Shown here in pieces: positions 4,533-9,143 of a stretch of DNA of 45,909 bases. Under the pieces are notes generated by a model. That model saw nothing but the letters and a program-made list of their open reading frames with translations, ran no database searches and had not been told where the DNA came from. The DNA comes from Gammaproteobacteria bacterium (GTDB lineage: Bacteria; Pseudomonadota; Gammaproteobacteria; Steroidobacterales; PWYM01): contig PWZL01000037.1 of NCBI GenBank assembly GCA_003567475.1, positions 1 through 45,909 of the forward strand, read 5' to 3'. The position numbers and the translations under genes were made by a program. Within the stretch, counting starts at the first letter, position 1; every line of letters starts with the position of its first letter.

Positions 4533-4679
4533 ACTCCCAGCCTGCCGCCAGGCCGCTGCCACTCCGTACGCTCTGCCTGCAGGCACGCCACATCCCCCGT
4601 TCCAGGTGGTCGGAAGCTGTCGCCGCAACGGATTTCCGCCTGCCCGTGCTGCCCCGGCACCGGCAAGTGACGACCTTGA

Positions 4680-4853
4680 TGGCAGGTTTCCTGGCTCGCA
4701 GCCCCAATGGGATCACGCTGGCCTTCCCGGAAGACTCCAGTGGCCGCTCACGCGCGCGTGCACCCAGGCTGCTCACAGTTGCGGGGACAGCCACAGCGTC
4801 CGGGAGGGTTTGCCTCCCGCTGTGTTCCCTTTTAACCCTCTGCGGGCACCATC
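4680..4853 (-). promoter_or_regulatory. Cobalamin riboswitch (AdoCbl aptamer)
   Basis: Read on the minus strand, the leader carries, in order, GGTTAAAAGGGAACAC, GGCTGTCCCCGCAACTGTGA, GGCCACTGG, CTTCCGGGAAGGCCAGC and the B12 box GCGAGCCAGGAAACCTGCC. These are the conserved blocks of the cobalamin riboswitch in their canonical order and spacing. It precedes btuFCD, so high adenosylcobalamin should shut the importer down. I do not see a clear terminator between the aptamer and btuF, so control is more likely at translation initiation. The 5' edge of helix P1 is approximate. Confidence 0.95.
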
Positions 4854-4860
4854 CCGGGGG

Positions 4861-4889
4861 AACATAGGCTGCGGCTCCCGGCATTGCAA
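4861..4889 (-). promoter_or_regulatory. Sigma70-type promoter for the btu operon
   Basis: On the minus strand TTGCAA (4889-4884) and TATGTT (4866-4861) are separated by 17 bases, placing a start site about 7 bases later, just ahead of the riboswitch. The position is exactly where the riboswitch transcript should begin. It matches 4 of 6 bases at each hexamer. Confidence 0.6.
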
Positions 4890-4920
4890 GGCCGGCGCAT
4901 CGGGGTCGCTGTGGCAAGGA

Positions 4921-4936
4921 TGTGAAATCTGTCACG
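4921..4936. promoter_or_regulatory. CRP/Vfr-like binding site
   Basis: TGTGA-AATCTG-TCACG matches 9 of the 10 palindromic positions of the CRP consensus (TGTGA-N6-TCACA). It lies between the divergent btu promoter and the sigma-factor promoter, centred near -48 of the proposed sigma-gene start site. No crp gene is in view, so the regulator is inferred. Confidence 0.45.
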
Positions 4937-4943
4937 CCCGTGC

Positions 4944-4970
4944 TGAATCCGGCTGGGTCCAGGGAACGAA
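4944..4970 (+). promoter_or_regulatory. Putative ECF-type promoter of the sigma gene
   Basis: TGAATCC (4944-4950), a 16-base spacer, then CGAA (4967-4970). The same hexamer-spacer-CGWA arrangement is found upstream of the DUF4397 lipoprotein gene at 6648, which suggests both are read by the encoded ECF sigma factor. It would leave a leader of roughly 180 bases before the sigma ATG. I see no gene in that leader. Confidence 0.45.
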
Positions 4971-5154
4971 ACAGCCTGTTATGAAATTCATGGCTGACAT
5001 TTTTGGGCCCGTCCAGCAACGGTTTGACTGGGCGACCGCAGGCGGGGGTGGTACCCTTGTGGCCCGATTGCCTCAGGTGGGGTCGCGTGCGCGCGAGCGG
5101 CATGCACCGCGTACCCCCGCCATGGCCCGCGTTCACGGAAAAGATTCCCCGGAC

Positions 5155-5721
5155 ATGACAGCTAGCGTCTTGGAACGGATCGCCGCGGGTGAGGCCGCAG
5201 CGGTTAACGAATGCATGCGTACCTACGGTGGCCTGGTCTGGTCGCTCGCCCTGCGCATGTCGCCCGGGCGTGCCGATGCCGAAGATGCCGTTCAGGAGGT
5301 CTTCATGGACCTCTGGCGCAACGCCGGTGCCTACGACCCCGCCAAGAGTCCGGAAAAAGTCTACATCGCGATGATTGCCCGTCGCCGGTTGATCGATCGT
5401 TGGAGAAGCCGTTCCCGCAGGCTCGAAACCGAGCCGTTGGAGGACAACGAAGCGACGCTGGAGCAGGTTGCCGAGGCCTCGCCGGGCATCAATGCCGAGC
5501 TGGCCGAGGCGATGGCCGTCATCGACGAGCTCGACCCGGAACAGCGCGAGGTCATCCACATGGGTGTGGTCCAGGGGATGACCCACAGCGAGATTGCGCG
5601 CGAGACCGGCAAACCGCTGGGTACGGTGAAAACCCAGATCCGTCGGGGGTTGATGAAGATCCGCGCGCGGCTCGCGCCGGACGGTGAGGGCGGGGAACAC
5701 GCCCGGGGAGCGGAGTGGTGA
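5155..5721 (+). CDS. ECF (sigma70 family group 4) RNA polymerase sigma factor
   Basis: A 188-residue sigma factor with only regions 2 and 4. Region 2 includes ADAEDAVQEVFMDLWRNA, the -10 recognition and core-binding helix, followed by MIARRRLIDRWRSRSRR. Region 4 contains LDPEQREVIHMGVVQGMTHSEIARETGKPL-type helix-turn-helix sequence ending GTVKTQIRRGLMKIRARL. The ATG at 5155 fits the family N-terminus, but GGAAAAG lies rather far upstream. An in-frame ATG at 5122 would add 11 residues. The stop overlaps the anti-sigma gene by four bases. An upstream motif shared with the downstream lipoprotein gene argues for autoregulation. Confidence 0.93.
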   Translation: MTASVLERIAAGEAAAVNECMRTYGGLVWSLALRMSPGRADAEDAVQEVFMDLWRNAGAYDPAKSPEKVYIAMIARRRLIDRWRSRSRRLETEPLEDNEATLEQVAEASPGINAELAEAMAVIDELDPEQREVIHMGVVQGMTHSEIARETGKPLGTVKTQIRRGLMKIRARLAPDGEGGEHARGAEW

Positions 5722-6584
5722 ATCCTCATTGGCGCAGCGAAGAACGGCTGCTCGAGTTGCTTTCGCAGCGAGCGGTCGAGGGCTTGAGTCCGGGCGAAAC
5801 CGCTGAGCTGCGCGAGCAGCTTGCGGCACACCCCAAGGTCGATGCCGACATGTTCGACGAGGCCGCAGCGTGGGTGGCCCTGGCGACACTCGAGCAGGTC
5901 GAGCCGATGCCGGAGGCGCTCTGCCAGAAGATTACGGCAACTTTTGCCGCGCGCACGCCCAGCCTGTCCGTCGTGCCAGGTGGTCATGCACAGGCCAGCG
6001 AGGACCGGCGGCCAGCGACAACAATGCCGGCGCAACCCGCGACCACGCCGCTCTGGCGACGCCCCGCGCCCGCCTGGTTGGCGGCCGCGGCGAGCGTTCT
6101 CATTGCCATCGGGATGTGGCTGCAGGGTCCGGAGCTCGTCGAGCGGGAAGTGGAACGCGTGGTCGAGGTCACGCCGGCGGTGCCAACGCCGGAATTCCGC
6201 CGGGCCGATCTCCTCTCCGCCGATGATCAGCTGATTCGCCGGTCCTGGCAGCTCACCGAGGGGTATGCACACCTCGATGTGCATGGAGATGTCGTGTGGA
6301 GCCCCAGCCGTCAGGAAGGCTACATGCGCTTTGCCGGCCTGCCTGCCAACGATCCGCGCGAGGCGCAGTATCAGCTGTGGATTTTCGACGCGACGCGGGA
6401 TGACAGTTTTCCCGTCGATGGCGGGCTGTTCGACATGCCGGCCAGCGCCGATGAAGTGATCGTGCCGATCCGCACGAACCTCCCGGTACGCGAAGCGGCC
6501 CTGTTCGCACTGACGCGCGAACCTGCCGGCGGCGTAATGGTCTCCAGTCGCGAAGAGTTGCTGCTCATCGCCCAGCCCGACTGA
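5718..6584 (+). CDS. RskA-like membrane anti-sigma factor
   Basis: A 288-residue single-pass protein. A cytoplasmic N-terminal part begins WRSEERLLELLSQRAVEGLS and resembles the short helical anti-sigma domain (RLLELLSxRxxxxLSPxExxEL). A membrane segment PAWLAAAASVLIAIGMW follows at about residues 118-134. The C-terminal part is periplasmic and resembles the RskA domain, with YMRFAGLPANDPREAQYQLWIFD and FALTREPAGGVMVSSREELLLI. The GTG at 5718 gives a GTGA overlap with the sigma stop and a GGGGAG seven bases upstream; GTG 5715 is possible. Known RskA-type factors hold the sigma factor at the membrane until proteolysis releases it. Its pairing with the upstream sigma gene is clear from the overlap. 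Confidence 0.88.
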   Translation: MNPHWRSEERLLELLSQRAVEGLSPGETAELREQLAAHPKVDADMFDEAAAWVALATLEQVEPMPEALCQKITATFAARTPSLSVVPGGHAQASEDRRPATTMPAQPATTPLWRRPAPAWLAAAASVLIAIGMWLQGPELVEREVERVVEVTPAVPTPEFRRADLLSADDQLIRRSWQLTEGYAHLDVHGDVVWSPSRQEGYMRFAGLPANDPREAQYQLWIFDATRDDSFPVDGGLFDMPASADEVIVPIRTNLPVREAALFALTREPAGGVMVSSREELLLIAQPD

Positions 6585-6647
6585 ATGCGCGGGCGGCGCT
6601 TGTCGCTGCGTCGAGCGTCTGTCTCTCACCGCCTTGTCAAGGCTCCA

Positions 6648-6674
6648 TGAATCCATTTTGGCGCTGTCACCGTA
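6648..6674 (+). promoter_or_regulatory. Putative ECF-type promoter of the DUF4397 lipoprotein gene
   Basis: TGAATCC (6648-6654), 16 bases, CGTA (6671-6674). It is the same motif and spacing as in front of the sigma gene at 4944. It ends 35 bases before the lipoprotein ATG and lies in the short gap behind the anti-sigma gene. Confidence 0.45.
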
Positions 6675-6709
6675 GTGTGGTCGTGTCGTTCATTCATGGA
6701 GGATTCAAC

Positions 6710-8146
6710 ATGCAGACGCGCCTGATGGCCACCCTGCTCGCGACAGCCGCGCTTGCGGTTGCGGGCTGTAACAGTGGTTCGCCGTCCAGTTCCGGGACTT
6801 TTCCCCCGGCACCGCCACCCCCCCCGCCGCCGCCGCCGGAGACTTCGACGGTGCGCATCGTGCATGCCTCGGCCGATGCGCCGAACGTCGACATCGTGGT
6901 CGAGGGCGATGTCGCATTTGGTGATGTGCCGTTTCTGGCGGCCACGCCGATCACCGAACTCGATAGTGGCGACTATGAAATCCAGGTCGACGCGCGTCTG
7001 CCTGGCGATGGGCGCCTTGCCGTCATCGGACCGGTGACACTCTCGCTGGAGGCGGATGTCCAGTACAACGTGCTGGCGATCGGTAACGTTGGCGCGGAGG
7101 CTGACAGCCCGGCCGCTTTCGGACCGCTGATCCTTGAACAGTCGCAGGAAGAGATTGCTGCCGATGAAGTGCGGGTGCGCGTGGTGCACGGGGCGCCGAA
7201 TGCGCCTGCAGTCAACGTGTTCGTGACCGAGCCGGGTGACCTGGCACCGGGCGAGACACCCCTGGGTAGCTTTGAATTCGGCGAGGCGCTCGCTCCGGTC
7301 ACCGTGCCGGAAGGGGAGTATCAGATCCGCGTTGCCGTCGAGGACAGCGGCGCGCAGGTCGCGGTGTTCGACTCCGGTACGGTGACGCTGCCGGGCGGCG
7401 CCGATCTGCTGGTGACAGCTGTACCGAACACCGGCGCCGGCGACGCACCGGTCAAGCTGGTGGTCGCGGACGGTCAGTCGGCATTTACGCTGCGGGATGT
7501 GAACACGCCGTCGAATGTGCGCGTGGTGCACGCCTCACCGGACGCCCCGGCGGTCGACGTCATCGTGAACGATAACTTCGAAGTGCCGTTCCTGGCTGAC
7601 GTGCCCTTCCCGGCCGCCTCCGGGTTCGTCGGGGTCGAGGCGGGCGAGTACAACGTCAAAGTGACGGCCGCGGGCAACGCCGGGGCGATTGTCATCGATG
7701 CCGACGTCGAGCTGCCTGCCGGGGCCGAGACGACCGTGGTTGCGGTGGGCCTGCTGGCCGACATCGAGCCGCTGCTGCTGGCAGACGAGCGTCGCGGCAT
7801 TGCCACCGAGTCGCGTGTGCGGATCGTCCATGGTGCACCCACCGCGGGCGAGGTCGACATCTACGTGACCGCGGTCGGTGCCGGGATCGAGGGTGTCGAC
7901 CCTGCAATTCCCGGTTTTGAGTTCCTCGCAGATACGGGCTATCTCAGCCTGGAGCCAGGCAGCTATGACGTGACGGTCACGCTGGCGGGTACCGACACCG
8001 TGGCGATCGGACCGCTGCCGATCGAGATTTCGGCCGGTGGTGTGTACAGCGCGATCGCACGGGATCCGTTGCCGGGCACGGACGCCTTCGGGCTGATCCT
8101 GCTCGACGACTTTGTTGTCGAGGATGAGGTCGTCGAGGAGCTCTGA
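6710..8146 (+). CDS. DUF4397 repeat lipoprotein
   Basis: A 478-residue exported lipoprotein. A signal peptide ends in the lipobox LAVAGC, followed by a Ser-rich tether and a run of nine prolines. Four DUF4397 beta-sandwich repeats follow. They start near residues 47 (VRIVHASADAPNVDIVV), 154 (VRVVHGAPNAPAVNVFV), 268 ([17 protein letters not shown]) and 369 (VRIVHGAPTAGEVDIYV). The ATG at 6710 has GGAGG eight bases upstream. The protein is acidic, with many Asp and Glu residues. It lies directly downstream of a sigma/anti-sigma pair and behind a promoter motif shared with the sigma gene, so it is the likely main target of that sigma factor. The function of DUF4397 domains is not established; a surface or adhesive role is a guess. 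Confidence 0.88.
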   Translation: MQTRLMATLLATAALAVAGCNSGSPSSSGTFPPAPPPPPPPPPETSTVRIVHASADAPNVDIVVEGDVAFGDVPFLAATPITELDSGDYEIQVDARLPGDGRLAVIGPVTLSLEADVQYNVLAIGNVGAEADSPAAFGPLILEQSQEEIAADEVRVRVVHGAPNAPAVNVFVTEPGDLAPGETPLGSFEFGEALAPVTVPEGEYQIRVAVEDSGAQVAVFDSGTVTLPGGADLLVTAVPNTGAGDAPVKLVVADGQSAFTLRDVNTPSNVRVVHASPDAPAVDVIVNDNFEVPFLADVPFPAASGFVGVEAGEYNVKVTAAGNAGAIVIDADVELPAGAETTVVAVGLLADIEPLLLADERRGIATESRVRIVHGAPTAGEVDIYVTAVGAGIEGVDPAIPGFEFLADTGYLSLEPGSYDVTVTLAGTDTVAIGPLPIEISAGGVYSAIARDPLPGTDAFGLILLDDFVVEDEVVEEL

Positions 8147-8192
8147 GACTGGGCGCTTAGAGGCTCAACGACGACGCCAGTCGTTGCAGACC

Positions 8193-8226
8193 GACAAGGC
8201 CCCGCCCGGCGGGGCCTTGTCTTTTT
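8193..8226 (+). terminator. Intrinsic terminator after the DUF4397 gene
   Basis: GACAAGGCCCCGCC and GGCGGGGCCTTGTC form a perfect 14-bp inverted repeat around a single C, followed by CTTTTT. It closes the sigma/anti-sigma/lipoprotein unit 47 bases after the lipoprotein stop. Confidence 0.93.
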
Positions 8227-8303
8227 CGTCATCGCGCCTGATTGCCCATCGGGTGTTGCCAGCCGCTACACTGGTCCTCTCTCAACCCTACAAGGCCTGC
8301 CGC

Positions 8304-9143
8304 GTGCCCGCTTCCCATCGCATCCTGATGTGCCCGCCGGATCATTTCCGGGTGGACTACGTCATCAATCCCTGGATGGCCGGCCACGCAGGTGGCCTGG
8401 ATCTGGAGCTGGCCCGGGAACAATGGGAAGGCCTGCGCGCACTGATCGCACAGTTCGCCGAGGTCGTGACGCTCGAGGCGCGGCCGAATCTCCCGGACAT
8501 GGTGTTCACCGCCAACGCCGGCGTGGTGTATGGCGATATCGCTGTGCCCAGTCATTTCATGCCCATGGAGCGCCGTCCGGAGGAGAGTCACTACCGCGAG
8601 TGGTTCCGCGCCGAGGGTTTCGATGTGCGCCGCCTGCCCGACAGCATTGGCTTCGAGGGTGCGGGCGACTGCCTGCTGGACCGCGGCGGAGCGTGGCTGT
8701 GGACGGGTTACGGCTTCCGCACCGAGATCGAGGCGCATCCGTATCTTGCCGAGTGGTTTCCCGATCGGGAACTGGTCTCCGTGCGTCTTACCGATGCGCG
8801 CTTCTACCACATCGATACCTGCATGTGTCCGCTGACCGGCGGCTATCTGCTCTACCACCCGCCGGCCTTCGATTACGACTCACGCGTCGCCATCGAACGC
8901 CGCGTCCCGCCCGAGCGCCGTATTGTGGTCGATACCCTGGATGCCGGGAGTTTTGCCTGCAATGCGGTGAATATCGACGAGCACGTGATCCTGAACCGCG
9001 CCTCACCCGCCTTGCAGCAGGCCTTGGGCGACGCCGGTTTCGTCGTGCACGAAGTGGCGCTTTCCGAGTTCCTCAAGGCCGGCGGATCGGCCAAGTGCCT
9101 GACGCTCAAGCTCACCGAGCCGCGCGAAGCGACCCTGTTGTGA
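8304..9143 (+). CDS. Amidino-hydrolase of the DDAH/arginine dihydrolase superfamily (COG1834)
   Basis: A 279-residue pentein-fold enzyme. The N-terminal MCPPDHFRVDYVINPWM, the FTANAG motif (about residue 70), FEGAGDCL (substrate-carboxylate and acid side), FYHIDTCMCPL (catalytic His) and the C-terminal GSAKCLTL (nucleophilic Cys) are all present, so the Cys-His-acid machinery is complete. FTANAG replaces the Asp/Glu-containing motif of arginine deiminase and dimethylarginine hydrolases. In cyanobacterial ArgZ/AgrE an Asn here is associated with arginine dihydrolase activity, giving ornithine. That function is an inference. The GTG at 8304 is chosen from family start positions; an in-frame ATG at 8328 would begin at MCPPDHF. 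It is monocistronic and converges with the next gene 7 bases away. Confidence 0.85.
   Translation: MPASHRILMCPPDHFRVDYVINPWMAGHAGGLDLELAREQWEGLRALIAQFAEVVTLEARPNLPDMVFTANAGVVYGDIAVPSHFMPMERRPEESHYREWFRAEGFDVRRLPDSIGFEGAGDCLLDRGGAWLWTGYGFRTEIEAHPYLAEWFPDRELVSVRLTDARFYHIDTCMCPLTGGYLLYHPPAFDYDSRVAIERRVPPERRIVVDTLDAGSFACNAVNIDEHVILNRASPALQQALGDAGFVVHEVALSEFLKAGGSAKCLTLKLTEPREATLL

Follow-up and report, generated by a model that had tools for sequence, protein, structure and literature searches.

A predicted ECF sigma promoter shared by an RskA-type sigma operon, a DUF4397 lipoprotein gene and a dispersed regulon in Steroidobacterales

The window (the whole stretch of DNA analysed, 45,909 bases of contig PWZL01000037.1 from a gammaproteobacterium of the order Steroidobacterales) carries the gene of an ECF sigma factor followed by the genes of an RskA-type anti-sigma factor and a secreted lipoprotein. 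The features of the locus are listed below.

4944..4970, + strand: predicted autoregulatory promoter of the sigma operon (-35 TGAATCC at 4944-4950, 16-base spacer, -10 CGAA at 4967-4970)
5155..5721, + strand: ECF sigma factor, 188 amino acids from ATG 5155 (Sigma70_r2 and Sigma70_r4_2)
5715..6584, + strand: anti-sigma factor of the RskA type (C-terminal RskA_C, PF10099, E = 1.6e-11)
6648..6674, + strand: predicted promoter of the DUF4397 gene (-35 TGAATCC at 6648-6654, 16-base spacer, -10 CGTA at 6671-6674)
6698..6703, + strand: Shine-Dalgarno sequence GGAGGA of the lipoprotein gene, read from the sequence
6710..8146, + strand: secreted lipoprotein with four DUF4397 stretches (lipobox LAVAGC)
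8193..8221, + strand: strong intrinsic terminator 3' of the DUF4397 gene (13-pair stem and T tail)

The sigma and anti-sigma genes overlap by 7 bases. One apparent membrane-spanning segment was read by eye in the anti-sigma factor; the HxxxCxxC zinc motif was absent from it in an alignment of 14 homologues, and its profile had no match in PDB. The Shine-Dalgarno sequence favours ATG 6710 as the start of the lipoprotein gene; the alternative, the first codon of the ORF at 6647, overlaps the -35 element of the second motif. With a terminator behind it, the DUF4397 gene is probably a one-gene unit. A literature search for ECF sigma factors together with DUF4397 found no joint report. The first motif is flanked on one side by the sigma gene and on the other by a divergent, btuFCD-like operon for B12 uptake, headed by a cobalamin riboswitch (Rfam RF00174, 92.8 bits; 4664-4868, - strand) that adjoins the sigma promoter. 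The second motif is located 63 bases past the anti-sigma stop codon and 35 bases 5' of the lipoprotein ATG, a position that suits a predicted promoter with a leader bearing the Shine-Dalgarno sequence.

The original prediction was that the same heptamer with the same 16-base spacing precedes the sigma and lipoprotein genes, and both sites were confirmed. The search for TGAATCC-N15-17-CGWA returned these two matches and no others in the window (0.10 expected), and two or more matches occurred in 0 of 100 shuffles of the window sequence. The bare heptamer, which had been anticipated to turn up several times by chance, was seen eight times (3.6 expected), so the weight rests on the combination of heptamer and spacing. 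The -10 element had been described as CG-rich; its position stands, and the wording is better given as a CGWA -10. Such a -10 is typical of several ECF sigma factors.

Conservation was followed in five genomes (G000-G004), i.e., the window's own and four of the same genus (GenBank MAG contigs L039-L042), in which the sigma orthologues were 97, 91, 80, and 70% identical. Sites were located by gene position, which keeps the test unbiased by motif searching. TGAATCC-N16-CGWA was found 204–211 bases 5' of the start of the sigma domain in all five genomes, the window included, and a second copy preceded the DUF4397 gene in 4/4 loci having that gene (the window and three same-genus loci). A lack of conservation before orthologous sigma and DUF4397 genes had been named as evidence that would count against the original prediction; the genus showed the opposite. 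The remaining locus, that of G002, has neither a DUF4397 gene after the anti-sigma gene nor a second motif copy and is a natural negative control for the latter. Between species the motif elements were 94–96% identical and the spacers 42%.

The spacing itself was enriched. Across the five genomes, TGAATCC-N-CGWA gave 37 matches at N16, whereas the ten neighbouring spacings averaged 9.4 (13, 9, 6, 14, and 9 at N11–N15; 12, 5, 3, 11, and 12 at N17–N21), a fourfold excess. For the CGTA version only, the count was 20 at N16 vs. a mean of 2.3 elsewhere. The corresponding Poisson probabilities are approximately 1e-11 (CGWA) and 1e-12 (CGTA), with kinship among the five genomes ignored. Since N13 and N19, which share the codon phase of N16, were not raised (6 and 3), a coding artefact is excluded. 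The enrichment that the original prediction called for was thus seen with respect to spacing. A comparison of upstream placement based on an ORF caller did not separate the spacings (12/30 at N16, 3/12 at N17, 4/8 at N15) and was dropped as evidence because the crude caller runs ORFs past their true starts. Genome-wide motif counts in other families were too noisy and were set aside.

An in-frame ATG at 4981, upstream of ATG 5155, would add 58 residues to the sigma factor (4981-5154). This ATG lies 13–14 bases 3' of the CG of the -10 element, and its position and frame are kept in 5/5 genus genomes; in all five, the frame from the upstream ATG to the sigma domain is free of stops over 168 or 174 bases. 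The other two frames of the 4981-5154 region hold about two stops each. The sequence is fast-evolving and its dN/dS among the five genomes is not clearly below 1, so the coding status of 4981-5154 is only probable. From these features, ATG 4981 is probably the true start of the sigma gene, on an almost leaderless mRNA. If so, the distance from promoter to gene becomes normal.

Beyond the window, the motif recurred 5' of the same genes across genomes with unrelated spacers, and 31 pooled promoters gave the consensus TG[A/C]ATCC-N16-CG[T/A]A. An operon encoding an FAD amine oxidase, a DUF1365 protein and a CMAS (domains identified by Pfam in G000) had the motif in five genomes, with N16 in G000, G001, G003, and G004 and N17 in G002. 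At L075:9193 and L076:5706, the TGA of the -35 TGAATCC is the stop codon of a CBS-domain gene 5' of this operon. Exactly one fasciclin gene is present per genus genome, and the motif was upstream of it in 5/5; the -35 variants were TGAATCC, TGCATCC (three genomes), and CGAATCT, always with N16-CGWA. In the window's genome, the fasciclin gene lies on another contig, and it is DUF4397 that adjoins the sigma gene instead. The motif also preceded a TonB-dependent receptor gene in four genomes and a gene for an HlyD-type RND adaptor in three. RlmE and NAD-epimerase/SDR genes, named by eye from sequence, had it in three genomes each, with -35 elements TGCATCC and CGCATCC, and probably belong to the predicted regulon. 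The RlmE/FtsJ site reads TGCATCC-N16-CGTA in three genomes (L096, L109, L113), hinting at ECF control of this rRNA methyltransferase. RlmE/FtsJ is usually a heat-shock gene. TGAATCC with N17 was found upstream of a secreted protein of the IEAGELRFRVLLD type in three genomes (L117, L127, L133), so the N17 spacing is probably functional too. Lipocalin, DUF2878, a second CMAS, and FolE had one hit each.

The sigma, DUF4397, fasciclin, and G002 FAD sites were found by position; several of the other targets were found via the pattern itself, so the identity of their elements is ascertained. A candidate target before an ABC-transporter gene (LolD-like, three genomes) was rejected as a likely coding match with a spacer 88% identical. 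Likewise, hits L062, L064, and L065, inside one conserved long ORF, and other hits within ORFs were attributed to chance or coding sequence.

Outside the genus, two genomes of another family of the same order (f11) had CGAATCC-N16-CGAA 49 bases 5' of the sigma start, and in the same family TGAATCT-N17-CGAA stood before three DUF4397 genes. The fasciclin motif was present at 14/18 genes where the genome has an unambiguous sigma orthologue vs. 1/12 distinct genes where it has none. The p-value of this comparison, which ignores kinship, was 0.0005; it rose to 0.002 once the TGAAACC variant, a post-hoc admission, was dropped, and to 0.03 when post-hoc variants and the genus were left out. In two genomes of the order (G042 and G046), the fasciclin gene adjoins the sigma gene. 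A clear motif was absent from the promoter of the FAD gene in 12 of the 14 out-of-genus genomes with that gene, which weighs against the sigma-promoter reading.

Two known systems resemble the one described here, SigK-RskA (ECF19) and RpoE-ChrR (ECF11). The SigK motif is approximately CCATCC-N16-17-CGAAT, and Rv0449c-Rv0447c are an amine oxidase, a DUF1365 protein, and a cyclopropane synthase. In PDB searches, the profile of the sigma family scored 102.8 bits with M. tuberculosis SigK and 99.6 bits with R. sphaeroides RpoE; the single sigma sequence (P0001) scored 60.9 bits with RpoE and 55.4 bits with SigK. The SigK NCBIfam model gave the window sigma 98.9 bits, below its cut-off of 226 bits. 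ChrR, as decided by TIGR02451 (Cupin_7 being too broad), had no match in the five genus genomes; the Caulobacter control genome was positive.

As in SigK-RskA of Mycobacterium and Yersinia, the ECF sigma gene is followed by that of a membrane anti-sigma factor with an RskA_C domain and no zinc motif, the system appears to be autoregulated, and a fasciclin gene (MPT83/MPT70-type) carries the motif in 5/5 genus genomes. The cassette mpt83-sigK-rskA has been described in mycobacteria and Yersinia, and M. tuberculosis SigK is autoregulated via the Rv0449c promoter (PMC7509140); fasciclin targets of SigK are light-induced in M. kansasii (PMC9861118). E. coli has neither SigK nor RskA (PMC7509140). 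The fasciclin arrangement in G042 and G046 is like that cassette, whereas the window differs in having DUF4397 beside the sigma gene. Also unlike SigK-RskA are the -35 element TG[A/C]ATCC and the additional predicted targets, the TonB receptor and the RND adaptor. In P. syringae, RpoE-ChrR (ECF11) has the consensus TGATCC-N16-CGTA; an FAD oxidase, a DUF1365 homologue, Cfa, and an SDR belong to the core regulon, and sites at a TonB receptor gene and an RND adaptor gene are among the further candidates (PMC5507510). The core ATCC-N16-CGTA is common to both promoters, the -35 being one base longer here. In Rhodobacter, the FAD protein (UfaD), the DUF1365 protein (UfaO), and the methylase UfaM serve furan fatty acid synthesis (PMC7380195), and the FAD/DUF1365 (ufa) genes are required for full singlet-oxygen activation (PMC6852236). 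Here, too, the FAD oxidase (UfaD), DUF1365 (UfaO), and CMAS (UfaM) genes, and probably an SDR gene, lie under the predicted promoter. In contrast to ChrR, which joins a zinc anti-sigma domain to a cupin, the anti-sigma factor here belongs to the RskA type and has an apparent membrane segment; fasciclin and DUF4397, as predicted targets, are further differences. The predicted promoter and much of the predicted regulon are ECF11-like; given that no ChrR match was found in the genus, the RskA-type anti-sigma factor and the marginally top score of SigK with the family profile, we describe the system as working in the manner of SigK-RskA on an ECF11-like gene set. It most likely works like SigK-RskA and controls the core gene set of RpoE-ChrR, associated with photo-oxidative or lipid-peroxidation stress of the membrane.

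The reading we favour, with a probability of roughly 85%, is that the motif is a -35/-10 promoter read by the window's ECF sigma factor, which would provide autoregulation and expression of DUF4397 and of a dispersed regulon under control of the RskA-type anti-sigma factor. Another ECF sigma factor, of the RpoE-ChrR (ECF11) type, could instead read the promoter, the window sigma being at most a co-user. The near-match of promoter and targets (FAD oxidase, DUF1365, Cfa) to ECF11 (PMC5507510, PMC6852236) is in line with this, as are the slightly higher score of P0001 alone with R. sphaeroides RpoE, the resemblance of the -35 element to that of another ECF group, so that a second ECF factor could share the promoters. 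We nevertheless regard it as unlikely: TIGR02451 detected ChrR in the Caulobacter control but in none of the five genomes, P0001 had no second close relative among the G000 matches listed (three matches in all, the other two too weak to appear there), in each of the five genomes the window-type sigma gene carries the motif, and the fasciclin motif tracks the presence of a window-type sigma factor.

Conserved two-block sites may also be operators, and the element might then bind a DNA-binding regulator with the true promoters elsewhere. This is very improbable considering that the blocks are asymmetric, without dyad, 16–17 bases apart and oriented with the gene, that the sites are mostly within about 110 bases of the start codon with CGWA at the -10 position, that a sigma-70-like promoter was sought at 4600-8400 and none was found, and that the element hardly differs from an ECF consensus with experimental support (PMC5507510). 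Least credible is that both motifs are functionless chance matches. The heptamer alone does exceed expectation in the window, but the full combination is expected only 0.10 times, and its conservation in five genomes with diverged spacers refutes a chance origin.

The reading with the most support is an ECF promoter under autoregulation, of the form TG[A/C]ATCC-N16(17)-CGWA. The claim that the neighbouring sigma factor recognises the motif is supported by conservation and by the N16 enrichment. From sequence comparison we infer direct recognition by the sigma factor, the transcription starts, the inducing signal, the physiological role, and furan fatty acid production. The RskA-type membrane anti-sigma factor would keep the sigma factor inactive until an envelope or oxidative signal frees it. 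The free sigma factor would then transcribe its own operon, a positive autoregulation in which the inhibitor is made too, and would also drive the DUF4397 lipoprotein gene and the dispersed regulon sharing the promoter. Its members would be FAD-amine-oxidase/DUF1365/CMAS (homologues of UfaD, UfaO, and UfaM), a secreted fasciclin protein, the TonB receptor, and the RND adaptor, with RlmE and NAD-epimerase as probable additional members. The FAD-DUF1365-CMAS genes are a membrane-lipid operon, probably of the furan fatty acid type. Of the self-regulating envelope circuit originally proposed, autoregulation is supported by the motif before the sigma genes of all five genomes; its limitation to three genes is too narrow, as the predicted regulon reaches past the window. 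The predicted set would be a stress regulon spread over the genome, for the most part of a familiar sort, and not a circuit confined to these three genes.

We tentatively suggest, at somewhat below even odds, that an RskA-controlled SigK-like sigma factor took over the core singlet-oxygen/furan-fatty-acid regulon of RpoE-ChrR, with the promoter code nearly unchanged, the sensor replaced, and DUF4397 replacing fasciclin beside the sigma gene. If this is true, the predicted signal of SigK-RskA is membrane photo-oxidation or lipid peroxidation. What began as a guess based on two sites is now a predicted regulon that can be tested and has its own promoter consensus, and the DUF4397 family gains a regulatory context. 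SigK-RskA and the singlet-oxygen system RpoE-ChrR, which have been studied apart, would be linked via a nearly shared promoter and lipid-modification targets.
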